DNA of 64,000 nucleotides from Halomicronema sp. CCY15110 (GTDB lineage: Bacteria > Cyanobacteriota > Cyanobacteriia > Phormidesmidales > Phormidesmidaceae), in contig NZ_JACSWC010000425.1 of NCBI RefSeq assembly GCF_016888165.1, positions 1 to 64,000 on the forward strand, read 5' to 3'. The notes beneath the pieces are model-generated. The model ran no database searches. It saw only the letters and a program-made list of their open reading frames with translations, and was not told the DNA's origin. This document shows, one piece after another, positions 30,862-46,010 of this stretch; the first letter of the stretch is position 1, and each line of letters opens with the position of its first letter. The position numbers were made by a program, and so were the translations under genes.

Positions 30862-31464
30862 ATGATTCAGGGACTCGAAAAACCAAAGGCTTCAGAAGAC
30901 ACGGTATTCCTCTACTACGATCGCACCTGGGAGCAATTCAAACACATTGAGAAGGGCTTAGAAGGCTCTCCTGGGGTGCGGCTATTCTTTTACGAGGGAG
31001 TGGTTGAAGTACTCATGCCAGGGCAACCCCATGAGATTTTCAAGAGGGTCATTAGCTCTCTGTTAGATTATTTCTTCTTGCACTTCAATATCGCCGTGAC
31101 GCCAACCGGATCGGTCACTCAAGAGCAGGAAGGGGTCGCTTCTGCACAGGCAGATGATTCATTTTGCTTTGGAGACATTAAGCCGATACCAGACTTATCC
31201 ATTGAGGTAGTTTTTACAAGCGGCTCCATCGCTAAATTGAAGCGGTACCAGGCATTAGGAGTACCTGAAGTGTGGTTTTGGGAAGATGGACTTTTAACCC
31301 TGCATCGCTTAGGCGAGAACGGATACACCAGAATCTACAGGAGTCAAATTCCTGAACTGGAGAGGCTGGACATTGAGCTGTTGTCTCGCTGTGTCTTAAT
31401 GGGCGAAACAGACTGGCTAGGAGCCGTTCGAACGTTCAGAGAAGAGATTACGAAAGCTCAATAA
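30862..31464 (+). CDS. Uma2-family (DUF820) PD-(D/E)XK protein
   Basis: 200 residues, the usual Uma2 length. Family features: FFYEGVVEVLMPGQPHE early on, the PD...E core PDLSIEVVFTSGS, then KLKRYQALGVPEVWFWEDGL. Uma2 proteins are very numerous in cyanobacteria and fold like restriction endonucleases; the biological role is undefined. AGGAGG lies upstream of the ATG. It stands between the TerB pseudogene and the CRISPR-Cas locus. Confidence 0.88.
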   Translation: MIQGLEKPKASEDTVFLYYDRTWEQFKHIEKGLEGSPGVRLFFYEGVVEVLMPGQPHEIFKRVISSLLDYFFLHFNIAVTPTGSVTQEQEGVASAQADDSFCFGDIKPIPDLSIEVVFTSGSIAKLKRYQALGVPEVWFWEDGLLTLHRLGENGYTRIYRSQIPELERLDIELLSRCVLMGETDWLGAVRTFREEITKAQ

Positions 31465-31613: not shown

Positions 31614-31619
31614 GATAAT
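31614..31619 (+). promoter_or_regulatory. Possible -10 box for the CreR-like RNA
   Basis: GATAAT lies 8-13 nt upstream of the first degenerate repeat hairpin. Transcription from it would start near 31625-31627. No strong -35 is visible. Confidence 0.3.
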
Positions 31620-31624
31620 AGTAA

Positions 31625-31720
31625 ACTCCCGACACGGGACTGAATTGAAAAATAATCAAAAGCCTTAACACGCAAGTGTTTTAATTGGCTCATCCCAATT
31701 CGCTTGGGACTAAATTACCG
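31625..31720 (+). ncRNA. CreR/CreA-like guide: degenerate repeat, 36-nt spacer, degenerate repeat
   Basis: Repeat 1 (about 31625-31651) keeps the 3' half of the array repeat exactly, GGGACTGAATTGAAA (31636-31650), and forms TCCC-GACAC-GGGA. Repeat 2 (about 31688-31720) reads GCTCATCCC...TTGGGACTAAATT, with stem TCCCAA/TTGGGA around TTCGC. The segment between them (31652-31687) is 36 nt, like the array spacers. Its first 22 positions match 31777-31798 at 17 positions. This is the architecture of Cas-regulating guide RNAs described for other CRISPR types, which steer Cascade to its own promoter. Transcription and function are inferred. Confidence 0.6.
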
Positions 31721-31721
31721 A

Positions 31722-31749
31722 TTCCCCTGGACGTTTTAGTTCAGGGGAA
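31722..31749 (+). terminator. Hairpin after the CreR-like element
   Basis: TTCCCCTG (31722-31729) and CAGGGGAA (31742-31749) form a perfect 8-bp stem with a 12-nt loop. No T-run follows, so it may be a weak terminator or 3' stabiliser of the small RNA, or an operator in the cas promoter. TATATT at 31751-31756 just after it could be the -10 of the cas operon. Confidence 0.4.
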
Positions 31750-31776
31750 CTATATTAGTCATAACTTGTCGGGGTC

Positions 31777-31798
31777 ATTATTAAAAGACTTAACATAC
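31777..31798 (+). promoter_or_regulatory. Protospacer-like target in the cas leader
   Basis: This segment aligns without gaps to the spacer start of the CreR-like element. Matches include AAAAG (positions 7-11) and CTTAACA (positions 13-19); mismatches are at 3, 6, 12, 20 and 21. GTC precedes it on the same strand as a candidate PAM. It ends 11 nt before the GTG start of cas3 and just before the GAAGG ribosome binding site. Confidence 0.55.
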
Positions 31799-31809
31799 GT
31801 GAAGGCTCT

Positions 31810-34089
31810 GTGAAGCGCATGGGCTATCAAGACTTCTTCAATCAAGTCACGGGATTTGCTCCGTATCCCTGGCAAGAAAACCTTTCTAATTGGAATGGCG
31901 AGACGATCGCGGTCGTAGCCGCGCCCACTGGTGCTGGGAAAGAATCAGGAGCGGTAACTCCCTGGCTTTATGCTCACAGCCAAGGTAAGCCAGTACCAAC
32001 GCGATTAGTTTATGCTCTGCCAACGCGATCGCTCGTTGATCAGGTCTATGCCAATATTCAAAAGGTCGTTGAGAAGTCCGGGCTAGAGGATATCAAGGTT
32101 TACTGCCTCAAAGGCGGGCAAGTTGAGCATGGCTTTGAGCAAGATCTGACCCAACCCGCGATTCTAGTTGGCACCCAAGATCAGCTGCTGTCACGGGCAC
32201 TGAATCGAGGTTTCGGTGTTTCCTGGGGGCAACGACCAATACACTGTGCCGCCCTGACAAACGACTGCCGCTGGATTCTTGATGAGATTCAGTTAACCGG
32301 GGTGGCCTATTCCACCCTGGCGCAGCTCTACAAGCACTGGCGCACGCTGGGCACCTACGGGCCGATGCAGCTGTGCTTGATGTCAGCCACGTTTGACGAT
32401 GCGCCACTGAGAAAAGAGAACTTAGCCTTCGATCGCTTTGAGCTGAGCGATGCCGACTTCGACAACAAAACGCTGAGCGCCAAGATAAAACGGCCAAAGC
32501 CTGTCTTTCAAACCAGTGTCGAGACCATCGAGGATGTAGCGGATCTGTCCAAGGCTAAGCACGTCCCAGGAACGCTGTCGCTGGTAGTAGTCAATACGGT
32601 GGCGCGAGCGCGGGAAATCGGCGAGCTGTTGAAAGACCTTGATCCCCTGGTAATTCACAGCCGGTTTCTAGGGATTGACCGCGAGGAGCGACAGAAGCGG
32701 CTCTACGGCTACCAGGGCTTGATTATCTCTACCCAGGTGGTTGAAGCAGGCGTAGATCTCGACGCCGAACTGCTGATTACCGAGCTGTGCCCCTGGTCGT
32801 CGTTTGTGCAACGCTGCGGGCGCTGTGGCCGGAAGCGGACGGACAATCCCGTAGAAATTCACTGGCTGGACTACCGGGAGGGCTGGAAGCCTGTCCCCTA
32901 CAGCAAGGAGGAATGCCAGGACACCCGCGATCGCTTGCTCAAGCTAGCCGACGCCAACCTCGATGCGCTATCTCACATTCCCCTGCCGGACCTCAAGCTT
33001 GATGGTCCTCCACTTCTCCAAAGCGATGTCGAGACATTCTTTTGCACCCACTACAAGAAACGCGACGCCCGCCTATCTGCGACGGCTCCGAAATATGTGC
33101 GAGACGTGAAATCCTTCACGGTTTCGGTTCTTTGGTCAACCGAGCCGCCCAAGCGGCTGCCTCACCAAAGGTACGTCTGCCCAGTTCCCACAGAGGAACT
33201 TAAGAAGTTTTGCCAATCTCATAACGTCAATTATCGGGTCTGGGGCGAAGACGATTGGGAGCCCAAGCTGATCGAGAACGGTGATGTCGTTTGGCTGCCG
33301 TTGGCGGCTGGCGGTTACTCGCACCAAGTTGGCTGGACAGGTAATCCAGATGACAAGCCGAAGGATTCCCCCATCCAAATCGAGCCAAAGTACAACGATC
33401 CTCACTACAAAATCAATCTAGCGCTTGGAACCCACCTTAAAGATACTGAGGATGCATTCAGAGGACTGATTCCCCATTTCAAGGGATTCATTCCCCATCT
33501 TCAAAAGCTAGGACTACCCGAAAGTCTCATTGCGGAGCTATGTCGCTGTGCTCGCTGGCATGACTGGGGTAAGGCCCATCCCACCTGGCAGGCTTATGCC
33601 AATGCAGAGCACTTCCAAGAGAAGTATCTAGCCAAATCGACTGACTATCAGCACTGGAGCGCCTTAAAGGGTTTCCGGCATGAACTTGCCAGTGCCTTTG
33701 CCGCTGCCGACCAGGGCGCTCCTTTCCTGGCCCAGTATCTGATTGCTGCACACCACGGCAAGGTGCGCGACAGCCTGCTGCCCCCGCACCCTAGTGAGCG
33801 CCTGAACCCTCAGGTCTTGCGAGGTGTCGAGCTAGGTACGTCCTTACCGCTGGTAGAGATTGCCGATGAGGGCATGGTCATTGAAACGCTCCCTGAAGTG
33901 ACGCTGGCATTTCCAGATAAGCCCGACCGCTGGAGCCGACGGGTCAAAGAGCTGCTGCGAGAATACGGACCCTATCGACTCATCTACCTCGAAGCCCTGA
34001 TTCGCAACGCCGACATTCAAGCATCCAAGTTTCGAGACGAGAACTACTTAAACGAGGAAGGAGCTAATGATAACAACTGCAACGGCTAG
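31810..34089 (+). CDS. cas3: CRISPR-associated Cas3 helicase-nuclease (type I-G order)
   Basis: 759 residues. The start is GTG at 31810 or ATG at 31819. Helicase motifs come first: APTGAGKES (Walker A), LDEIQL (motif II), LMSATF (III), ISTQVVEAGVDL (V) and FVQRCGRCGRK (VI). The HD nuclease is C-terminal: RWHDWGKAHPTW, FRHELASAF and AAHHGKVR. A helicase-then-HD order is typical of type I-G (formerly I-U) Cas3. It unwinds and degrades target DNA after Cascade binding. It is the first gene of the operon and overlaps csx17 by 23 bp. Confidence 0.93.
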   Translation: MKRMGYQDFFNQVTGFAPYPWQENLSNWNGETIAVVAAPTGAGKESGAVTPWLYAHSQGKPVPTRLVYALPTRSLVDQVYANIQKVVEKSGLEDIKVYCLKGGQVEHGFEQDLTQPAILVGTQDQLLSRALNRGFGVSWGQRPIHCAALTNDCRWILDEIQLTGVAYSTLAQLYKHWRTLGTYGPMQLCLMSATFDDAPLRKENLAFDRFELSDADFDNKTLSAKIKRPKPVFQTSVETIEDVADLSKAKHVPGTLSLVVVNTVARAREIGELLKDLDPLVIHSRFLGIDREERQKRLYGYQGLIISTQVVEAGVDLDAELLITELCPWSSFVQRCGRCGRKRTDNPVEIHWLDYREGWKPVPYSKEECQDTRDRLLKLADANLDALSHIPLPDLKLDGPPLLQSDVETFFCTHYKKRDARLSATAPKYVRDVKSFTVSVLWSTEPPKRLPHQRYVCPVPTEELKKFCQSHNVNYRVWGEDDWEPKLIENGDVVWLPLAAGGYSHQVGWTGNPDDKPKDSPIQIEPKYNDPHYKINLALGTHLKDTEDAFRGLIPHFKGFIPHLQKLGLPESLIAELCRCARWHDWGKAHPTWQAYANAEHFQEKYLAKSTDYQHWSALKGFRHELASAFAAADQGAPFLAQYLIAAHHGKVRDSLLPPHPSERLNPQVLRGVELGTSLPLVEIADEGMVIETLPEVTLAFPDKPDRWSRRVKELLREYGPYRLIYLEALIRNADIQASKFRDENYLNEEGANDNNCNG

Positions 34090-36109
34090 GGCCGTCGCTT
34101 TCCCTCACCTGTTACCCACTACCGCGATCGGCTGGCTCAAGGCCATTGGCCTACTGCGGCTTTCGGGCGCTACAGGCTATTGGGAAAACGACTGCTTTTA
34201 CCTGGAAATCGATTCTGCTGAGGAACTGGTCGAGAACATGCTCACCAGTTACCAGCCCAAGCCTTTTGTCAGTCCCTGGAACAGCTACAGCCTGTTCAAT
34301 AAGGAGGATGGCCTCGAAACCGTTTTGGCGTCCCAGTCCGAGCGCTATGAACTGATGCGAGAGGGCTACCAAGCGCTACAAACGGCTCTGGAGTCCTTGG
34401 ACACACAGGGGCAAAGCTCGGCTCAGAAAAAGCTGACGATGATGGATACCTTATCGCGTCAGGTCCACAATCCCTACTGGCAGGAGTGGAGAAAGGCGGT
34501 CGGGATGCTGACGGACACAAAAAAGGGACCCCGGTTTCTCTGTAATGACCTGCTAGGGACGGGGGGCAATGTTGGCACGACAGACTTTTGTACAGTCTAC
34601 TTCCAGGTATGCAGTCAGCTCTGGAATTTAGAAACCGGGGAGCCTGCACCAGAGACCGAAGCCTACATCCGAGCATCGGTACTAGGCGAGCCGTTATCCA
34701 ACACCCTGATGCTTCAGGGCCTGCTGGGGCATACCTACCCAGCTGCCGACTACTTCGATGATTTGGCTCCCTCTGCGACTTCTCAGGCAGACTATCTCGA
34801 CAACGGCGGGCGATCGTCGCAGCTGGCGAACCCCATTGATCTGGTCCTGTATCTGGAGGGAGCCACGACCTTTGCAGGCAATCCTACTGCCCTCAGCGAA
34901 GTCCAGCAGGAGGGCGATCAGGAGCGGACGATCGCATGCTATCCGCTACTGCTGGAGGTCAACTCAGGTAGCGCCGACACTAGCGATCGCACCGGACGCG
35001 CCTATGAGGTCTGGCTGCCTCTTTGGGATGAGCCCCTGGACTGGCAAGAATTTCAGGAGTTGGCAACTGAGGACTTGTCGTTTCGCCTGAAGCATCAGGT
35101 TGTCGATACCCTCGACATGCTGGATGCAATTACCCAAGTAGACGAAGGGCGCGGACTATCTCGATATTCCCGGTTCGGCCTCTGGACCCGCAAAGGGCAG
35201 GGAAAATACCTGATTCATGTGGGTCTGGCCGCTCCTGGGGCAACGGATATTGGCGCAGAGCTGAGGCATTGGCAGCTGAAAGCACGTCCCAGTGACAACC
35301 AATCGCAGGCTCAATACAACCTGCTCACGGCAATTCATAAGGCGCTCTATCGCCTTCAACAGGGTAATGCTGAAGCCACGACTGTGATTCGCCTGCTAGG
35401 GCAACTAGAACTACTCCACAGCCGGATTCAACCTAGCGTTCCGCCCGTGCCGCAACTCAAAGCGACTTGGATTGAGGCAGTTTATGGGGAGCTTCCCATC
35501 TACGAGGTAGAGCTGGCGACTGCTCTGGCTAGTACCTCGCTAACCCATGAAGATTCTGGCCACTCTCAAGACCTACGACGATCGCTCTCCTCAGCTCGCT
35601 ATTCCCCTAATAAGAAAACCTGGTTTTGGAGCAATGACCACACCCACAAACTCAAAACCTCTTCCTTAGAAGCATTTTGTATCTCCCTGCTCAAGTTGTG
35701 GCAGGAGACACCAGAGCGACATCCAGCTCATGGCTGGCAGTTTTGGGCGAGCCCAGACGCGATCGCGACATTCATTGCCGGACAAACCAACGATCAGCTG
35801 ATTCTGGAGCTGGCGATCGGGTTTGCCCTGTGCCGAATCCCCAAAAAACTTGGGGACTACTCCGCCAAGCTACCACTACCAGAGCCCTACAAGTATGCAG
35901 CCTCGCTTCAATGGACCCCTGACACCAATCTGACGATGCAGACGATTAACGCGCTGATGGCGGGAGCTACTACGCCATTGCAGCGACAGCTATCGGTTGT
36001 TCAGAAACCTACAGTCTTGCCCCCCAGAATTGCCAGTGGCGATCGCAGCGCTCTGGCCCTTGTGTTCCCTTGTAAACCCTTCTATACCTTTGGAGAATCC
36101 CATGATTAA
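34067..36109 (+). CDS. csx17: Csx17, type I-G large-subunit-like protein
   Basis: 680 residues. The N-terminus (FPHLLPTTAIGWLKAIGLLR) matches the Csx17 opening. Length and position between cas3 and csb1 also fit. Csx17 is the presumed large subunit of type I-G Cascade, contacting PAM and target DNA. The ATG is preceded by AAGGAG inside the end of cas3. It overlaps csb1 by 8 bp. Confidence 0.85.
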   Translation: MITTATARAVAFPHLLPTTAIGWLKAIGLLRLSGATGYWENDCFYLEIDSAEELVENMLTSYQPKPFVSPWNSYSLFNKEDGLETVLASQSERYELMREGYQALQTALESLDTQGQSSAQKKLTMMDTLSRQVHNPYWQEWRKAVGMLTDTKKGPRFLCNDLLGTGGNVGTTDFCTVYFQVCSQLWNLETGEPAPETEAYIRASVLGEPLSNTLMLQGLLGHTYPAADYFDDLAPSATSQADYLDNGGRSSQLANPIDLVLYLEGATTFAGNPTALSEVQQEGDQERTIACYPLLLEVNSGSADTSDRTGRAYEVWLPLWDEPLDWQEFQELATEDLSFRLKHQVVDTLDMLDAITQVDEGRGLSRYSRFGLWTRKGQGKYLIHVGLAAPGATDIGAELRHWQLKARPSDNQSQAQYNLLTAIHKALYRLQQGNAEATTVIRLLGQLELLHSRIQPSVPPVPQLKATWIEAVYGELPIYEVELATALASTSLTHEDSGHSQDLRRSLSSARYSPNKKTWFWSNDHTHKLKTSSLEAFCISLLKLWQETPERHPAHGWQFWASPDAIATFIAGQTNDQLILELAIGFALCRIPKKLGDYSAKLPLPEPYKYAASLQWTPDTNLTMQTINALMAGATTPLQRQLSVVQKPTVLPPRIASGDRSALALVFPCKPFYTFGESHD

Positions 36110-37103
36110 TGTCATCACCGTTGAGTTTGAATCCGCTCTGCCCACTGTTAAGCCGCCCACGTTTCTAGATGTGGGCGTCTCCCAGGCTTACTTGCCCTGG
36201 GAGCAGCGCTACGACGTGCTGCTACATACCCCCCAGGCCACCGCGAACCTGATTGAAGCCAGCGTTTGGGACGCAGTAAATCATGCTCTAGTGCCGGAGC
36301 TGGAAGGCATGCCCTTCGTTGAGATTTACACAAAGTCGGGGCAGTACGTAGCCAGCACCCTCGATTTACCCCACCGTCTCGGCACAGGCTACCTGCTCAA
36401 AAACAAAGAAGCCAAGTTAGATGGAGAGCGATTTCGAGAAGGGCTACGAGAGCGCATTAGAAAACAAGGCGTGTACTCAGCCGTGTTTGCGCTGTGCCCC
36501 ATGAGTATTGTCCTGGGCAGCTTCTACACCCATATTGCCGGGGTCTATCGGATTCCCCGCGTACTCTCTGGTGAGTTTGTAGCTGAAAATGCCGTGTCGA
36601 TGCCTACGGGTGGCGCTGTTCATGATCCGGTTTCGGCTCGGGGGATGGGAGTGAACATCAAACAAATGTTTGCTATCAGCCGAGATAAGAAGGGCGAAAA
36701 AGATAAAGCCATCAGCAAGCCCAGTGAAGCTGGACTTGGGAACATCGTTTATGTGCGAGAAAGTTTCAAGGCAGAGCGCTATGTAGGCCGCTTCGTGATT
36801 GATACCCGTCTGGCAGAGAAGTCGAATCTAGCCCCTGAAGCCAAGCACCTGATTCGAGTCCTCAGTGAGTACCTGGTCTCGCGTCTACTGTCGGAGACGG
36901 TAACCCTGCGAACAGAGTGCTATCTGACTCCGGTGGAGATTACCTGCTCGAACAAGCAGGAACTGCCGACTTTGGACAAGGCAGCAGCCGATGTCAAGCA
37001 GGCAATCCAAGACTGTGCGGAGCTATTCGAGAAAGTACGTGTCGAGGTTCCTGATGACCAAGTGGACTTTGACGATGCCTCTGAAGATGACGCGGCAGCT
37101 TAG
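36102..37103 (+). CDS. csb1: Csb1 (Cas7-type backbone subunit, GSU0053 family)
   Basis: 333 residues from the ATG at 36102, which has GGAGA upstream; an upstream in-frame ATG lies inside csx17 and is unlikely. VYSAVFALCPMSIVLGSFY, RVLSGEFVAENAVS and GGAVHDPVSARGMG are family-like. Csb1 is the Cas7 of type I-G, forming the crRNA-bound filament. The C-terminal tail is very acidic (DDASEDDAAA). Confidence 0.88.
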   Translation: MINVITVEFESALPTVKPPTFLDVGVSQAYLPWEQRYDVLLHTPQATANLIEASVWDAVNHALVPELEGMPFVEIYTKSGQYVASTLDLPHRLGTGYLLKNKEAKLDGERFREGLRERIRKQGVYSAVFALCPMSIVLGSFYTHIAGVYRIPRVLSGEFVAENAVSMPTGGAVHDPVSARGMGVNIKQMFAISRDKKGEKDKAISKPSEAGLGNIVYVRESFKAERYVGRFVIDTRLAEKSNLAPEAKHLIRVLSEYLVSRLLSETVTLRTECYLTPVEITCSNKQELPTLDKAAADVKQAIQDCAELFEKVRVEVPDDQVDFDDASEDDAAA

Positions 37104-37165: not shown

Positions 37166-38680
37166 ATGATCCATATTCAGGTTGATTTTCACACCAACCA
37201 GTACCAGGCCTGCGCCTGGGGCAATCACCATTCCGAAGGCGTTATCGACTGGCCCCCCGCTCCCTGGCGGCTCTTGCGGGCGATCGCGGCAGGCAGCTAC
37301 AACGTTCACCTAGCAGAAAAGCACCTGCCAACACTCAAACAGTTGCTCCACAAGCTGGCAGCAGTTCTCCCGAGCTACACTTTGCCGCCGACGACTTATA
37401 TTCAGCATCGCAGTCCTCGTCCTCAAGTGAATTCCAAAACGGCCAAGGTCGTGCCGGGGAAAACCCTTTATTCAGCAGGGCTGCTGATGTCGAGTGAGCA
37501 CAGCCAGCTGTTTATCCACTGGCCAGTTGAGTTATCAGATAGCGAGGAGCTGGTACTACAGCTGTGTCTATCAGGTCTTACTTATCTAGGACGGCGAGAG
37601 GCAGCGGCAACACTGAGCTTAGTGGAAGCAGCACCAGAACCCAACGCGGAGGCGGATCCGGGTGGTACGCGCATCGTGGCGATCGCTGCTGCTGATCAAG
37701 ATCAAGAGGCGCTTTGGGAGGCGCTGAACCTTTCTGCTCATGAAAATTATGGGGAAAATCGTTCAGCAGTGTTTCCGGGTATCCAGCAGGCGACCTATCG
37801 GGTCGAGGTTACTGATCCTAAACGGAATGCTACCTCTTGGCCAAAACAGCATGTGGTAACTCTGGCTGTCAATCCAGTAAGCTCTCCTCGATTGCCGATG
37901 AAGCTTGCTTTAAAGCTGACGAATCGACTGCACCAAAGCCTGGTGAGCCGCTGCCCCCACCAGGTGTTCACCGGACAAGAGATGGGGCAGCTTAGCTATG
38001 ACCACAATCACACCATCATTCAGTGTGTTGCTGATTCAACGGGTCGGTACGTTGAGTCGCTGAAGCTTTACAGTCATGATGGTTATGACGCTTCACATTT
38101 GGCTGTAATTTCCACCTGCAATTATTTGCAAGGAGTTGCAAGAGGGTACGACATCTCACTATCACTGGTGGACTTGGGTAGTTTCGAAGAGACTGTTCAG
38201 GATTGGGGATCTTCTACGCCATTCTTTTTATCCCGGTTTCCAGCAGTGCGACGGGGTAAACCTCGCATGTTAACCGAGCAATATCAAAAGGATGGACCTG
38301 AGCATCAGGTGCTGCGCTATCTTCAGTTTCTTCCTTGGGTAGGATTAAAAGGAGAAGCTCATTATAGGGAGCATGATCAAGGGCTAGCGCTTTATTTAAA
38401 CAATGCTCTAGCAGCAGTGGTTTCCTGTGAACCGTTTCCACAATTTTGGGAATGGGCTGCGGACAGAAATCCAGATAAAACGGAGCAACCAAAGGGTAAA
38501 AAGGTTGGACGGATCGGGTATCGCGTTTACCTGAGTTTTACTGAGCCTGTGAAGGGTCCGATCTTGTTGGGGTATGCAGCTCATTATGGATTGGGAGCGA
38601 TGCAGCCTATGCGCGAGCGGGTAGGTGTTCAGGGGCCAATTGAGCAGAACGTAACTTGTACAGTGGTTTTGGCTGATTAG
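37166..38680 (+). CDS. csb2: Csb2 (Cas5-Cas6 fusion, GSU0054 family)
   Basis: 504 residues. The N-terminus, QYQACAWGNHHSEGVIDWPP then PWRLLRAIAAGSY, is the Csb2/Cas5-like opening. The C-terminus ends with LLGYAAHYGLGAMQPM, a Cas6-style glycine-rich loop. In type I-G, Csb2 both caps the crRNA 5' end and processes the repeat. AGGA lies upstream of the ATG, 62 bp after csb1. It is the last cas gene; no cas1, cas2 or cas4 follows. Confidence 0.88.
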   Translation: MIHIQVDFHTNQYQACAWGNHHSEGVIDWPPAPWRLLRAIAAGSYNVHLAEKHLPTLKQLLHKLAAVLPSYTLPPTTYIQHRSPRPQVNSKTAKVVPGKTLYSAGLLMSSEHSQLFIHWPVELSDSEELVLQLCLSGLTYLGRREAAATLSLVEAAPEPNAEADPGGTRIVAIAAADQDQEALWEALNLSAHENYGENRSAVFPGIQQATYRVEVTDPKRNATSWPKQHVVTLAVNPVSSPRLPMKLALKLTNRLHQSLVSRCPHQVFTGQEMGQLSYDHNHTIIQCVADSTGRYVESLKLYSHDGYDASHLAVISTCNYLQGVARGYDISLSLVDLGSFEETVQDWGSSTPFFLSRFPAVRRGKPRMLTEQYQKDGPEHQVLRYLQFLPWVGLKGEAHYREHDQGLALYLNNALAAVVSCEPFPQFWEWAADRNPDKTEQPKGKKVGRIGYRVYLSFTEPVKGPILLGYAAHYGLGAMQPMRERVGVQGPIEQNVTCTVVLAD

Positions 38681-38845: not shown

Positions 38846-40709
38846 GCTGAAATCCCTCTGCTACGAGGGACTGAATTGAAACTGGGGCGAGAACATTTAG
38901 CAAAGGAGAACCAAGAGCTGAAATCCCTCTGCTACGAGGGACTGAATTGAAACCTTTGGCCGTGACTCTAAGGTGGCGGGCAAGCTCAGCTGAAATCCCT
39001 CTGCTACGAGGGACTGAATTGAAACGACTGGGAAAAGTTTAAGCGATTGATCGAAATTGGGCTGAAATCCCTCTGCTACGAGGGACTGAATTGAAACCCA
39101 TTCCTCAGCAGCCGGTGGGCTGTTCTCGCCAGGGTTGCGAGCTGAAATCCCTCTGCTACGAGGGACTGAATTGAAACATGCCAGAAACCGAAGTTGTCGA
39201 AGTGGTGGACGACGCTGAAATCCCTCTGCTACGAGGGACTGAATTGAAACAGCAGATCATCGGATGGTACGGCTGATATCTGATCGGCTGAAATCCCTCT
39301 GCTACGAGGGACTGAATTGAAACCAGGCTCAGCAATTCAGAACTCTGAACGCTTCCTAGCTGAAATCCCTCTGCTACGAGGGACTGAATTGAAACAATAT
39401 TGGCGATCGCTATGTGGTGGTGATCTATGGCCCGCTGAAATCCCTCTGCTACGAGGGACTGAATTGAAACGTTTTCCCTGGATTTACATCAGCCTCAATG
39501 AGTGAAGCTGAAATCCCTCTGCTACGAGGGACTGAATTGAAACCTTCAGTCGTGGGCGGCATCCTACGGCGCTTTTTGGCTGAAATCCCTCTGCTACGAG
39601 GGACTGAATTGAAACAGCTACATCGTAACCGAGTGACGCGATAAAGCGAGCTGAAATCCCTCTGCTACGAGGGACTGAATTGAAACGATTGGGCAATCAA
39701 TTTCTCGCGCCAACTGTTTGGCTGAAATCCCTCTGCTACGAGGGACTGAATTGAAACCTTCAGTATGGGCTCACCATCTTTGCGGCCCGCTCGCGCTGAA
39801 ATCCCTCTGCTACGAGGGACTGAATTGAAACTAGTGTGGCCGGTAGTGCCGGGGCCTACGAGTTTGCTGAAATCCCTCTGCTACGAGGGACTGAATTGAA
39901 ACGGATGGCTCAACTATGAGCCGCACTGGGAAGCGTTTAGCTGAAATCCCTCTGCTACGAGGGACTGAATTGAAACGTCGCATAAATCCTAATCGTATGT
40001 TTTCCCCCAGGCTGAAATCCCTCTGCTACGAGGGACTGAATTGAAACGCGTAATGGCCCACGAATTCCACGAAGGCAACGCCCGCGACGCTGAAATCCCT
40101 CTGCTACGAGGGACTGAATTGAAACAACAGTTCAAGGCTTAGGCAGTGGGCGGATCGATTTGGAGCTGAAATCCCTCTGCTACGAGGGACTGAATTGAAA
40201 CCCCCAAATCGCCGCCCGTGGCGGCGAGCGGGACGGGCTGAAATCCCTCTGCTACGAGGGACTGAATTGAAACGAGCAGCGACGGCAGCTTGAGATCAGA
40301 GAACGTATGCTGAAATCCCTCTGCTACGAGGGACTGAATTGAAACCACACTTGGTCTAGGTCAATTCTCTACAAAAAAAAGCTGAAATCCCTCTGCTACG
40401 AGGGACTGAATTGAAACGTTTTGTTGGCAATGGTCGCAAGGGCACCCTTACGCGCTGAAATCCCTCTGCTACGAGGGACTGAATTGAAACCTATTCTGCT
40501 AGGACTCTTCCTTCCAATACTCCCGGGCTGAAATCCCTCTGCTACGAGGGACTGAATTGAAACGAACCCGAACAGGGCTTTGGTGGCTTCGTTGAGCAAG
40601 CTGAAATCCCTCTGCTACGAGGGACTGAATTGAAACTCGCTCGCTTGCGGAATGCAGTTGCCGTAGGGAGTCGCTGAAATCCCTCTGCTACGAGGGACTG
40701 GATTGAAAC
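38846..40709 (+). CRISPR. CRISPR array: 26 repeats of 37 bp, 25 spacers
   Basis: The repeat begins GCTGAAATCCCTCTGCTACG and ends AGGGACTGAATTGAAAC (37 bp). TCCCTC...GAGGGA forms the hairpin. Repeats start at 38846, 38917, 38989, 39061, 39141, 39214, 39287, 39359, 39434, 39507, 39579, 39650, 39721, 39795, 39866, 39940, 40011, 40089, 40165, 40237, 40309, 40381, 40454, 40527, 40600 and 40673. All match except the last, which has GGATTGAAAC. Spacers are 34-43 bp, mostly 34-37. It follows csb2 in the same direction, and csb2 likely encodes the processing enzyme. Confidence 0.98.
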
Positions 40710-41359: not shown

Positions 41360-42298
41360 TCAATCTTCGAGGAGTGCTTCTATTTGCTGGAGTAATTTCT
41401 CGATACGCTTTTGCTTCCCAGGGCTACTAATTTGCTTACGCTTGTACTTGCGTGAAAGATCTGACAATCGAATACTGATTGATGGAGTTTCAACGTCGGT
41501 AGTGCCTTGCCTACTTGCTTTCACCTCTTTTTTGATTTCAGAAATCGGCAGTGATTCCAAAATCGCTCGCTCTAATAACTCCTGCTGCAGCTTGTCGTCT
41601 TTCAGCTTTGCGATTTCTCTAGCCTTCGTGTACTCTAGTGCGCCTTGTCTAAGCGCCTCAAGGATTCTGTCCGGCAGCGTTAGTAGAGGTAGTCGGGACG
41701 TTCTGAAGCTTTCAGGGGTAATGGCGATCGTTGACGACAACACTGCTTCAATGACTTCCATCTGTCGGGAAACGTTTTCCGACAGGACTGTATTTTTTTT
41801 GCTTGCTGTTGCTGCCTGGGTCAAAATTTCATGGATTTCAGAAACACTGCAACACAATTCTTCAGTCAGTAAAGTTAAAACACCCTCTGTTTCCTCCAGC
41901 GGGTTCAAGTTCTCTCGCTTGAGGTTTTCAATAAGAGCAATCTTAAAAGCTTGCTTTTCCGACAATCTTTTGATGACAACTGGTACAAATTCATGATTAA
42001 GTGCTTCAGCGGCTCGTAAGCGGCGATCTCCTGCTACCAATTCATAAAGGCCATCTTCGCTGTCATCATCAAGTGGACGAACCAAAATTGGTTCTAGAAT
42101 GCCTCCATCATCTTTGATTGATTGAATCAACTCTTCGAGTTTGTTCGGGTCAAAGTATTTGCGAGGTTGTTTTTTGGGCCGACGGATTTTTTGGATTGGA
42201 AGTGAACATCCTGATTCCGAAGTGTGTGGTTGCTGTGCAGTGCTCAAGAAGGCCGAGACGCCTCGCATTTGTGGAACTGTGGAGCGTTTTCTAGTCAT
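41360..42298 (-). CDS. parB: ParB-family partition protein
   Basis: 312 residues. KKQPRKYFDPNKLEELIQSI, GILEPILVRPL and YELVAGDRRLRAAEAL form the ParB/Spo0J N-terminal (CTPase) domain. LIENLKRENLNPLEETEGV and a central HTH region follow. ParB binds parS and loads onto DNA to segregate a replicon. It overlaps parA by 8 bp. A parS-like palindrome lies within this gene. Confidence 0.92.
   Translation of the reverse strand: MTRKRSTVPQMRGVSAFLSTAQQPHTSESGCSLPIQKIRRPKKQPRKYFDPNKLEELIQSIKDDGGILEPILVRPLDDDSEDGLYELVAGDRRLRAAEALNHEFVPVVIKRLSEKQAFKIALIENLKRENLNPLEETEGVLTLLTEELCCSVSEIHEILTQAATASKKNTVLSENVSRQMEVIEAVLSSTIAITPESFRTSRLPLLTLPDRILEALRQGALEYTKAREIAKLKDDKLQQELLERAILESLPISEIKKEVKASRQGTTDVETPSISIRLSDLSRKYKRKQISSPGKQKRIEKLLQQIEALLED
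41762..41785. promoter_or_regulatory. Candidate parS palindrome inside parB
   Basis: A 24-bp near-perfect palindrome from CTGTCGG to CCGACAG with centre GGGAAACGTTTTCC. It shares the GGGAAACGTTT core with the palindrome upstream of parA. Confidence 0.5.
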
Positions 42299-43052
42299 CT
42301 AAATCCTCTACCAAGCTTTTGGCGATATCGTCTAAAACTTTAGTTGCTGCATGTTTACGACTAAAAAGCGCTAACGGCAAATGCTCCATAGACGCATCCG
42401 CAAATGCCGTAGCTCTTGGAACAGGCGGATGAATCATTCCAACCTGTGATAACTGCGATTGAATAGCCGACAAAATATCTTTATCTTGAGCATTGTTTGC
42501 AGCATAAATTGTAGGGACAATGCCTGCAATCCTCAGGTCCGGACGAACGTTACTTTTCACCTGCTGAATTGTGTCTAGAAGCAATTCAGTTCCTTTATAG
42601 CTCTTATACTGAGTTTGAACAGGAATAAGAACGTGGGTGGCAGCAACTAGACTAAGTACGCTCAAAACCCCCAAGCTAGGGGGGGCATCTATCAAAATGA
42701 AATCGTATTCGGCCTTAACAGACTCTAAGGCTTTACTGAGCCTCCACTCACGAGACATCATTGATGACAACTGAATTTCAGCAGCACTAAGCATGATGTT
42801 AGATGGAGCCAAATCCATTCCATGAATGTCTCTGTGTATTGGAATTGGCTCATCTTTAAGGATAGCGTTAGCTATAGTCTGTTCCAGATCAGCCGGTTCT
42901 AGCCCCATGAAGGCAGTGAGGCTAGCCTGCGGATCGAGGTCAACCAATAGCACAGACTGTTTGCGCTGCTTTAAGTGGTATCCAATATTCATTGTCAAGG
43001 AGGTCTTCATGACGCCTCCTGACTGATTGAAGACAGCAATAATTTTGGTCAC
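42291..43052 (-). CDS. parA: ParA-family partition ATPase
   Basis: 253 residues from a GTG at 43052, which has GGAG 8 nt upstream and begins MTKIIAVFN; a TTG at 43100 would add 16 residues. The deviant Walker A is NQSGGVMKTS, with Gln-Ser where most ParA have Lys-Gly; a variant of this type occurs in cyanobacterial plasmid ParAs. Walker A' is VLLVDLDPQASLT and Walker B is FILIDAPPSLG. ParA forms ATP-dependent gradients that position plasmids with ParB. It overlaps parB. Confidence 0.92.
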   Translation of the reverse strand: MTKIIAVFNQSGGVMKTSLTMNIGYHLKQRKQSVLLVDLDPQASLTAFMGLEPADLEQTIANAILKDEPIPIHRDIHGMDLAPSNIMLSAAEIQLSSMMSREWRLSKALESVKAEYDFILIDAPPSLGVLSVLSLVAATHVLIPVQTQYKSYKGTELLLDTIQQVKSNVRPDLRIAGIVPTIYAANNAQDKDILSAIQSQLSQVGMIHPPVPRATAFADASMEHLPLALFSRKHAATKVLDDIAKSLVEDLDD

Positions 43053-43183
43053 ACCTGAAGCTCCGTTAGGGTGGTTTGTGGTTCGTAGTCGATCAGGCAA
43101 GTAGGCACTATTTTGCTTTAAATGATCAAGTTTTTCAATTGCTCCTAGCCAGAGACGAGTCGCATTCAGCCTGCCGTCTTATC

Positions 43184-43205: not shown

Positions 43206-43335
43206 AGACAAAACTAGGATGCGCGTGAATTTATGGTTGTCTACAAAATTCGGCAAGTCCGTTAGCCTGGGCTTCCCCTGCTCTCTTATTTTGCTATCGC
43301 ATCGCATCTCTAGAATTATCTGGAGATGCATTTTT

Positions 43336-44916
43336 ATGTCCATTCACATTGCTCCGCCTGCCCTCAATCTGGAAGCTGTGCGAGAGATTGAGGTGGATGT
43401 CGCACTTGCCGCAGGCAACGATCGCCAAGAGCCATTGTATCTGTGGGACGACAATTTACAAAAGCTCAAACAAATCACAGATGTCGATCTGAGGTTGCTC
43501 TGCTTCCCTGGCTGGCAACCTGACAAAGCTTCCCTAGTCAAAAGCGGTCAACCCGTCATCCTCAGCTACGGCCTGGGCGCGGACTCAACCGCACTGCTGC
43601 TCAAATACCTGAGCGAAACGGACGAAGAAAGGGGCTTTCCGCTCGAAAACCTGATCGTCATCACGTCTTTGGTCGGTCGGGAGTGGGATGAAACTATTGA
43701 TAAAGTGCAGCGGTTTATCCTGCCCCTACTACGGCAGCACAACATCCTGACCATTCAATGTGGTCGCATGTCTGACTATTCAGCCGAGGGTTGGATTATC
43801 TATGAATGCAGCCGTCAGCCTCAGCGCATCTATCAGGGTGTGGCTCAACGCCTCGGCTGGACATTGGATCGCCACCTGCTGCGAAACGGCATTGTGCCGC
43901 AACGCCGCAAGGGTGCCCGCACCTGCACGTTGCGCTTTAAGGGCGAGGTGATTGACGCGATCGTGCGCCATCTGTTTGCCGTCTCCCCAATGGCAACCTA
44001 CAAGCGCGAGATTGGCTACAACGCCGATGAAGTGGGACGGGCGAACCGGAGTGAAGGCTATGGCTCTGATGGCATCGAACCCACTTATCACGTTGGCTAC
44101 AACGCCGATGAGACCCACCGGGCCAAGAGCGATCGCTCAATGGGTAATCAGGGCTATGCCTACGAGATTGGCTACAACGCCGATGAGGAGAGCCGCATCA
44201 GTGCGGAGGTTTCCACCTGGCGCAAGCAGGTCTTTAGCTTCCCGCTGATTACCAAGTACGGCATGGATCGGGCGGCAGTCGATGAGTTCAACATCGTCAC
44301 CATCGTGGCGCTTTATGGCGTGAGCCGGGATGAGGCGCGGATTCGCAAAAGCAGTTGTACGGATTGCCCATTCAGTTGCTCCAGTGGCGGTCGCTCACTG
44401 CTGCTGAAATCCTATTGGAGCCAGCCAGAGGAGGGGGCCAATGCTGCTTTCATCGAGCAGAATGCCTTGGCGCTCAATCCTACCCAGTTCCTCTACTCCA
44501 GCAAATTCACGGTCTTAGAGCTGCTGGAGCAGGACGGCAATACGGCGGCGTTGCAGGCGTACCAAGACCTGATGACAAGCATTGAAGACTGGGCCGTTTA
44601 TGCGGTGCGCCGCATCTGGAAGCCAAAAGGATTGATCCGCCAAACCGATCGCGTCTTTGAAGGTACTCGCCAAGAATGCCAACGCCTGCTGGAACGCATT
44701 GGTGAAGCAACTGGGATTGCTCCTGTCTTGCTGTCTCTGTCCTGGCGCGTGGTCACGATTGAGCGCACGAAGGAAATCCGCCCCAGCGTGGAAGAAACGT
44801 TCATTGTGACGCCCAACTATCCCGTAGAAAAGCAGGGCCGCATCACGAAGGAAGCCTTTGCTCTGAAGTGGAAAGGTTTAACCGGAAAGCGACCCACTAC
44901 CCCTATCACTAACTAA
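43336..44916 (+). CDS. PP-loop (PAPS-reductase/DndC-like) protein with triplicated motif
   Basis: 526 residues from the ATG at 43336 (GGAGA upstream). ILSYGLGADSTALLL at about 75-88 is a PP-loop for ATP adenylation. GARTCTLRFK follows. GYNADE occurs three times, at about 227, 254 and 279, where relatives usually have one such motif. Cys341, Cys344 and Cys348 (SSCTDCPFSCSS) could bind a metal or FeS cluster. The fold fits PAPS reductase/DndC-type enzymes that activate or transfer sulfur. The DndB-like gene follows 11 bp downstream, which supports a nucleic-acid sulfur-modification role; no DndA, DndD or DndE is visible. Confidence 0.75.
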   Translation: MSIHIAPPALNLEAVREIEVDVALAAGNDRQEPLYLWDDNLQKLKQITDVDLRLLCFPGWQPDKASLVKSGQPVILSYGLGADSTALLLKYLSETDEERGFPLENLIVITSLVGREWDETIDKVQRFILPLLRQHNILTIQCGRMSDYSAEGWIIYECSRQPQRIYQGVAQRLGWTLDRHLLRNGIVPQRRKGARTCTLRFKGEVIDAIVRHLFAVSPMATYKREIGYNADEVGRANRSEGYGSDGIEPTYHVGYNADETHRAKSDRSMGNQGYAYEIGYNADEESRISAEVSTWRKQVFSFPLITKYGMDRAAVDEFNIVTIVALYGVSRDEARIRKSSCTDCPFSCSSGGRSLLLKSYWSQPEEGANAAFIEQNALALNPTQFLYSSKFTVLELLEQDGNTAALQAYQDLMTSIEDWAVYAVRRIWKPKGLIRQTDRVFEGTRQECQRLLERIGEATGIAPVLLSLSWRVVTIERTKEIRPSVEETFIVTPNYPVEKQGRITKEAFALKWKGLTGKRPTTPITN

Positions 44917-44927
44917 AGGAGAACCCC

Positions 44928-46010
44928 ATGACTCAGACTACTGCCGATAAATACCCTGATCATCTATTCCCCATCATCGACCCGGACGCTGAATATCAGT
45001 TCTCCGTGGTCGAGGGGCAGCAAAGCGGTCGCCCTTATTGGATGCTCAATCTGACCGTTCAGGACATTAAGCGCATGTTTGCCGAGTTCCTCGACCGGGC
45101 CGAGCATGACCCCAGATCGCTGGCCCAACGCTCACTCAATCCGAGTCGAGCACGAAAGCTCAAGAAATACATCTTGGGTGAGGTGCTGCCGGATGAGGGC
45201 TTTTACATCCTGCCGCCGCTAGTGCTCTCGGTGGACTGCGAGGAATATGACTTTGATGAAGTCTGCCAGGGCGCAGGGCGTTTAACCCTGCCTTCTGACT
45301 CTCGGTTTTGGCTGGGAGACGGGCAGCACCGCGCCGCCGGATTCCTGCAAGCCTACCTCGAAGCTCCGGCGATGCTTAACGATGAAACCGTGGGCGTGAT
45401 GCTGTTGCCCGATACAGGCAACCAGATTCGCCATAAGGTGTTCCTCGACATCAACGCCAATGCTTCTAAGCCGAGCAAATCAATCGCGACTCTATTTGAC
45501 GAGCGCGATCGCTTGGCTGATGTAACGCGAAACCTGCTGGTCCTGCCGTGGGTGGAGCGGTACACCAACTTGGAACGCACCACGCTCCCCAAGCGCAGCG
45601 GTGATCTATTCACCCTGAATGGCTGGCGGGATGCGAACCGGGAGCTGCTGGCGAACGTGCCAGAGGACGATTGGGATAGCGTTGCGGCTGGCTACTGGAA
45701 GGCGATCGCTGAGACCATCCCTCAGTGGCGCGACCTGCTGGCGGCGGTGGAGCAAGAGCAATCTGTAAATGCTCCCCCCCTCCGGCAGGACTACATCTGT
45801 TTCCACTCGATTACGCTATCAGCTCTGGGCCTACTGGGTCAGCAGCTCATCGGCGAGTCCGGTCAGGCTCCCGACCTATCGGGGCTGGCAGCCGTGGACT
45901 GGAGCCGCAGCAATCCCGATTGGGAAGGGCTGTTCTTATTCGAGGGCAAGATTATCAAAAACAAGCGGTCAGCGACTCACTTTGCTGACTACTTGCAGAC
46001 GTTTGTATAG
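44928..46010 (+). CDS. DGQHR-domain protein, DndB-like
   Basis: 360 residues. LAQRSLNPSRARKLKKYIL, then FWLGDGQHRAAGFLQAYLE (DGQHR at 131-135), VFLDINANASKPSKS and LFDERDRLADVTRNLL match the DndB/DGQHR family, which regulates DNA phosphorothioation operons and resembles ParB nuclease folds. AAAGGAGAACCCC precedes the ATG, nearly identical to the vWA gene leader at 49770. The adjacent PP-loop gene points to one module. Confidence 0.85.
   Translation: MTQTTADKYPDHLFPIIDPDAEYQFSVVEGQQSGRPYWMLNLTVQDIKRMFAEFLDRAEHDPRSLAQRSLNPSRARKLKKYILGEVLPDEGFYILPPLVLSVDCEEYDFDEVCQGAGRLTLPSDSRFWLGDGQHRAAGFLQAYLEAPAMLNDETVGVMLLPDTGNQIRHKVFLDINANASKPSKSIATLFDERDRLADVTRNLLVLPWVERYTNLERTTLPKRSGDLFTLNGWRDANRELLANVPEDDWDSVAAGYWKAIAETIPQWRDLLAAVEQEQSVNAPPLRQDYICFHSITLSALGLLGQQLIGESGQAPDLSGLAAVDWSRSNPDWEGLFLFEGKIIKNKRSATHFADYLQTFV

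Follow-up and report, generated by a model that had tools for sequence, protein, structure and literature searches.

The question raised by this locus is whether a mini-CRISPR located upstream of a type I-G cas operon supplies a guide against the leader of that same operon. Within the 64,000-nt stretch of Halomicronema sp. CCY15110 DNA that was analysed (referred to here as the window), positions 31615-31720 hold one 36-nt spacer bracketed by two degenerate repeats of the I-G array type. The relevant features are as follows.

30862-31464: Uma2-family gene, upstream of the mini-CRISPR
31615-31651, plus strand: psiR1, the first degenerate repeat of I-G array type; its 3' part GGGACTGAATTGAAA equals the array repeat at 15/15 positions
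31652-31687, plus strand: psiS, a 36-nt spacer-like guide, with positions 1-17 as the functional match
31688-31720, plus strand: psiR2, the second degenerate repeat, with the hairpin (31692-31709) and GGGACT retained and the 5' handle gone (ATTACCG)
31728-31756, plus strand: putative cas promoter, sigma-70-like by consensus scan (-35 TGGACG at 31728, N17, -10 TATATT at 31751)
31774-31776, plus strand: PAM-like GTC (across the cyanobacterial pairs described below, GTC in 11/13 and GTT in 2/13)
31777-31793, plus strand: matched part of the target (protospacer-like operator), of which the full 36-nt footprint would extend to 31812
31810-34089, plus strand: cas3g (TIGR02621, 507 bits; PADLOC Cas3g, 4e-233), with helicase and HD motifs and a probable start at ATG 31819
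34067-36109, plus strand: cas8g/csx17 (TIGR04113)
36099-37103, plus strand: cas7g/csb1 (TIGR02570)
37166-38680, plus strand: csb2, a Cas5-Cas6 fusion for crRNA processing (TIGR02165; Cas56g, 1e-233)
38846-40709, plus strand: canonical I-G CRISPR array with 26 copies of a 37-nt repeat

The type I-G effector set (cas3g, cas8g/csx17, cas7g/csb1 and csb2) was found to be complete and accompanied by its cognate array, and the interval between operon and array contains no ORF for cas4-cas1 or cas2. In type I-G, cas4-cas1 and cas2 are commonly located beside the effector genes, without being required. The array is adjoined by ParA and ParB genes (42291-43100 and 41360-42298), suggestive of a plasmid, and a DndB homologue (44928-46010) follows an ORF that by eye resembles a PAPS reductase gene (43219-44916).

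The first-pass annotation, which was made from the DNA letters alone, had described two array-type repeats with hairpins around a 36-nt segment of typical spacer length. Both hairpins were indeed found to fold, that of psiR1 being of the TCCC/GGGA type (-6.2 kcal/mol) and that of psiR2 being ATCCCAA-TTCGC-TTGGGA (-6.4 kcal/mol), while the spacers of the window array range from 34 to 43 nt, with a median of 36 nt. The last 8 nt of psiR1, ATTGAAAA (31644-31651), represent the crRNA 5' handle and correspond to the array handle ATTGAAAC. The element shares its repeat family, 36-nt spacer, handle and hairpin, and effector with an ordinary I-G array, but differs from it in having a single spacer, in the degeneracy of both repeats and the loss of the second handle, and in a guide that pairs at just ~15 positions, with its own cas leader. 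A strong promoter upstream of psiR1 was not found in the window by the consensus promoter scan.

The guide (31652-31673) had been reported to match 31777-31798 at 17/22 positions, directly behind a GTC, and both statements withstood recalculation: the ungapped alignment has mismatches at positions 3, 6, 12, 20 and 21 only, and GTC occupies 31774-31776. Among ~128,000 window positions on both strands, this is the best match of the guide (runner-up, 15/22), and in 3000 rounds of dinucleotide shuffling the leader never attained 17/22 (mean maximum 11, highest 16). Furthermore, the combination of PAM and seed, GTCATNATNAAAAGNCTTAA, was present at a single site in the 6.15-Mb genome when up to two mismatches were allowed, this site being the cas leader target.

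The leader is ordered as promoter, GTC, target ATTATTAAAAGACTTAACATAC and cas3 start. As the target is located downstream of the sigma-70-like promoter, it represents a site in the leader or early transcribed region, rather than the -35 or -10 element itself. The target had previously been placed 11 nt before cas3; it does lie close upstream, but the distance depends on the start codon. Because cas3 relatives start at an equivalent MxYxxFF, ATG 31819 is, on this comparison, more likely to be the real start than GTG 31810, in which case the target would end ~20 nt before the start codon. The guide has the same sense as the mRNA, which precludes antisense RNA action and leaves DNA binding as the sole base-pairing route.

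CreR (Cas-regulating RNA) was described by Liu et al. in 2023 (Cell Host Microbe 31:1481, as cited in PMC12948488 and PMC12737573). CreR has reportedly been shown for types I-B, I-E and V-A. The present element resembles CreR in being a mini-CRISPR beside cas genes whose crRNA-like guide is complementary to the cas promoter region only to a limited extent, in lacking a toxin and in its predicted autorepressive role. As expected of CreR, the window spacer is partially complementary to the cas promoter or leader, beside a PAM that was inferred from guide-target pairs. Unlike known CreR, the element is found in I-G, whose Cascade, without a separate Cas5, binds Cas3 before the target, and it is associated with a GTC/GTT PAM and, in two loci, with tandem targets. 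In other types, CreR senses crRNA abundance and anti-CRISPRs via competition (reviewed in PMC12737573 and PMC12948488).

The same element was identified in four orthologous loci from other cyanobacterial genera (L009, with a Cas3 64% identical to that of the window, L061, L062 and L115), and the orthologous clade is supported in the Cas3 tree. All four preserve the layout psiR1-guide-psiR2-promoter-GTC-target-cas3, with promoter hexamers and spacing similar to those of the window, and have different upstream sequence. In an alignment of the five orthologues, the invariant elements comprise, within the mini-CRISPR, handle and guide together with the 3' arm of the psiR2 hairpin and, within the leader, parts of the promoter as well as GTC and the target. 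The psiR2 hairpin is built from different base pairs in the four loci, yet is preserved, and the psiR1 hairpin was weak or absent in some orthologues upon folding.

Whether the spacer tracks the leader in related loci had been put forward as a check, and shared base changes were observed in all four orthologues. With letters given in the order window, L009, L061, L062 and L115, and as guide/target, position 1 reads AGAAA/AGAAA (A to G in L009 on both sides), position 7 reads AGAAG/AGAAG (A to G in L009 and L115) and position 3 reads AAGGG/TAAGG (A or G on both sides), with zero matches at position 6 (CATCT/TTAAA) and position 12 (CCTCC/AAAAA). When targets were reassigned among the five orthologues, the observed total or higher was reached in 4/120 permutations, because their guides and targets are so alike. 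The joint change of guide and target in related genomes makes a chance match unlikely and, as judged from these alignments, the guide-target relation has been maintained by evolution. In three close relatives of L061 and L062, namely L063, L064 and L066, guide and target are both missing; L063 and L064 fall inside the CreR-bearing clade of the Cas3 tree and L066 retains flanking remnants only, and the absence in these three is read as a putative secondary loss.

Independent guide-target pairs were sought in up to 49 I-G loci, by scanning for a handle followed by a guide that matches the region upstream of cas at positions 1-5, 7-11 and 13-17, with positions 6 and 12 left unscored. When a PAM ending in TC and at least 14/15 matches were required, 5/1,357 handle-like positions were retrieved, as compared with 4/27,140 random guide positions. 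Scanning of more genomes with GTC as a requirement added L115, L116 and L071, and inspection of ectopic repeats added L069, L038, L119 and L020. Unrelated guides that match, in the same phase from the handle, the leader of their own cas operon were found in the cyanobacterial loci L036, L072, L034, L116, L071, L069, L119 and L038, and also in the non-cyanobacterial I-G locus L020. Two repeat-like sequences and one spacer-like sequence beside cas genes are present in 13 of the 30 cyanobacterial I-G loci having upstream sequence, plus L020; a recognisable element is missing from about half of the cyanobacterial I-G loci examined, including L063 and L064. Non-orthologous CreR-like loci are scattered over the second branch of the Cas3 tree.

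The handle is kept in 14/14 CreR-like loci, with at most one change each, and the psiR2 hairpin was present in all 12 loci that were folded and was recognised by eye in L038 and L020, whereas the psiR2 handle is absent at every locus except L034. Guides match their own targets at 11-15/15 positions, versus typically 1-7 for the targets of other clades. The pairs of L119, L071 and L038 are weaker (11-12/15), and their detection was partly guided by PAM or position. In the sister species represented by L116 and L119, psiR1 is identical and the upstream flanks are similar, and guide and target have both been replaced, the L119 match being weaker than that of L116. In 14/14 pairs, the protospacer is located on the coding strand of the regulated operon, and this is still the case in L034 and L020, where the mini-CRISPR has the opposite orientation.

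A small unrelated ORF (~50-120 aa) lies between the CreR target and cas3 in L072, L034, L071, L116, L119 and L038, and L116 contains an additional 280-aa ORF there. In L020 (4750-5625), the guide is on the minus strand at the cas3-proximal end of the array, and the target is upstream of a 168-aa ORF that precedes cas3 and by eye resembles an ECF-type sigma factor gene. Several further matches were rejected: one in L069 (-1045 against +26 relative to cas3, ~20 nt identical) is probably a duplicated cas3 5' fragment, and those in L031, L073, L018, L027 and L118 are dispersed repeats. Ectopic mini-CRISPRs are located upstream of I-G cas3 in L039 (-814 to cas3) and L117 (-120), for which a convincing cas-leader target was not found. 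Viral contigs scanned with Cas8g and Cas3 yielded zero relatives, a plasmid collection yielded one distant Cas3 relative and nothing else, and the window organism's own order yielded no further I-G Cas3 at the cut-off used.

Across the 14 pairs, the numbers of matches at positions 1 to 17 were 14, 14, 12, 14, 14, 0, 14, 13, 10, 12, 14, 1, 13, 12, 11, 13 and 11, followed at positions 18 to 21 by 5, 7, 2 and 6, which is about chance; matching therefore stops at 17, i.e. after three Cas7 segments. With the orthologous clade counted as one row, 19 of the 35 mismatches within positions 1-17 fall at 6 or 12, an outcome obtained in 0/100,000 permutations. I-G Cascade is known to flip out bases at positions 6 and 12 (PMC9638904), and the earlier suggestion that the window mismatches at 6 and 12 are such flipped-out positions can be extended to 27/28 cases. 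This periodicity is the fingerprint of a type I effector, and it points neither to a protein operator nor to a newly captured spacer. The flipped positions match less often than expected by chance (1/20, one row per clade, P ~0.016), as if matching at positions 6 and 12 were avoided, and across the 14 pairs the target is mostly A and the guide mostly C or T at these positions.

GTT replaces GTC as the PAM in L069 and L038, and TTA would be the PAM in L020, consistent with the known I-G TTN. Published I-G PAMs comprise TTN, TAN, TAC, AAN, TTC and TAT, and do not include cyanobacterial ones (PMC8482600, PMC12915315). Against 50,697 phage records, zero matches were returned for the spacers in the arrays of the window, L061 and L062, so GTC is unconfirmed as an interference PAM; the assignment of GTC/GTT, derived solely from the guide-target pairs, remains a candidate. 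The target is present twice, in tandem, in L071 and L034.

These observations bear on two explanations that do not invoke an active guide RNA. It is conceivable that the AAAAGnCTTAA words are two operators of a protein repressor, one of which lies by accident between repeat relics, since the orthologous clade has a similar word at both places and the tandem sites of L071 and L034 look operator-like. This is considered highly improbable, however, as the words of other lineages are unrelated, occur in the same phase from the handle and are mismatched at 6 and 12, as GTC/GTT always precedes the cyanobacterial targets and not the guides, and as the psiR2 hairpins are preserved through different pairs. 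It is also very unlikely that the element is what is left of a decaying array, carrying a self-targeting spacer that was derived by accident from the cas leader and is now without function. Although both repeat copies are degenerate and the origin of self-targeting spacers is a known event, a captured spacer should match at positions 6 and 12 and past 17, which the observed guides do not; moreover, the element persists in several genera, in which guide and target have changed in a matching way, and the handle and hairpin of the element are preserved, whereas the remainder is variable.

More closely related in anatomy is the CreA antitoxin of CreTA modules. The Acinetobacter I-F CreA likewise has two degenerate repeats and ~17 paired positions (17/20 pairs), is unpaired at positions 6, 11 (compare 11/12) and 18, and targets a site downstream of the toxin promoter (PMC10097628), but its target is a toxin RNA gene, whereas here it is the cas operon, in a different subtype. 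In the Puniceicoccaceae locus L013 (4917-5844, minus strand), a two-repeat mini-CRISPR adjoins an I-G cas3, and its guide shares 16 identical nt (PAM TTC) with the site that spans the start codon of a gene for a DUF3368 (PIN-type) toxin. On the opposite side of the mini-CRISPR from this gene, a UPF0175-like antitoxin ORF was recognised by eye. This locus is a candidate for a CRISPR-repressed toxin in type I-G, as a one-off toxin-targeting case. For the window, little credence can be given to an arrangement in which a toxin lies between mini-CRISPR and cas3 and cas repression is secondary. The window and orthologue targets directly precede cas3 with the leader alone intervening, no toxin gene is present between the window target and cas3, and no conserved toxin was found among the upstream neighbours of the window element and its orthologues. 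The CreTA criterion of a guide directed to the promoter of a linked toxin gene is not met in the window, which, in the absence of a toxin, is CreR-like rather than CreTA-like.

It is thus considered very probable that a CreR-type crRNA directs I-G Cascade to the leader and thereby represses the cas operon, with transcription, processing and repression being inferred. A one-spacer mini-CRISPR of the creR type would be transcribed on the plus strand into a crRNA-like RNA, of which the 5' handle would be generated by Csb2, or by a transcription start near psiR1, and the 3' end would be formed by the psiR2 hairpin; the RNA is predicted to start with AUUGAAAA-AUAAUC. Once loaded into I-G Cascade (Csb2, Cas7, Cas8g and probably Cas3), a step that is likewise inferred, it would allow the complex to read GTC and to form base pairs with the leader's template strand, at positions 1-5, 7-11 and 13-17, just past the cas promoter at ~+10 from the predicted transcript start. 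Such a geometry has been shown for I-F CreA (PMC10097628). The R-loop would halt at ~17 bases, suggesting repression by roadblock or occlusion instead of cutting, although the absence of cutting is itself an inference. The cas3-cas8g-cas7-csb2 operon would in this way be kept low by its own product, and ordinary array crRNAs may compete for Cascade and relieve the repression, a presumed titration modelled on CreR in other types. The autorepression proposed in the first-pass annotation is supported in that the guide tracks the leader; there are no RNA or expression data.

A literature search found no report of CreR in I-G or I-U, but did not cover the primary 2023 CreR survey, which might list I-G. 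CreR is already known, and its probable occurrence in I-G is what is new here, subject to that limit of the search. It can be advanced only tentatively that RNA-guided autorepression is general in I-G, with the element present in ~40% of the cyanobacterial loci that were surveyed and in at least one lineage besides, guide and operator being re-invented together and operators sometimes occurring in tandem. In I-G, Cas3 is pre-bound to Cascade, which requires it to form stable R-loops (PMC9638904); because of this requirement, the loop may sense the level of Cas3, whose gene comes first in the repressed operon. If the loop is general, the Cas3-loaded complex must be kept from cutting a 15-pair target, which raises the question of how a Cas3-carrying complex can bind the leader of its own operon and leave it intact. 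Natural compensatory experiments are provided by the sister species in which guide and operator have been swapped. If CreR-type autorepression is confirmed, the natural pairs would provide a pairing rule (1-5, 7-11, 13-17) for cyanobacterial I-G effectors, with GTC/GTT as a candidate PAM of use for programmable repression, and CRISPR self-regulation by a dedicated guide would extend to the least understood type I subtype.
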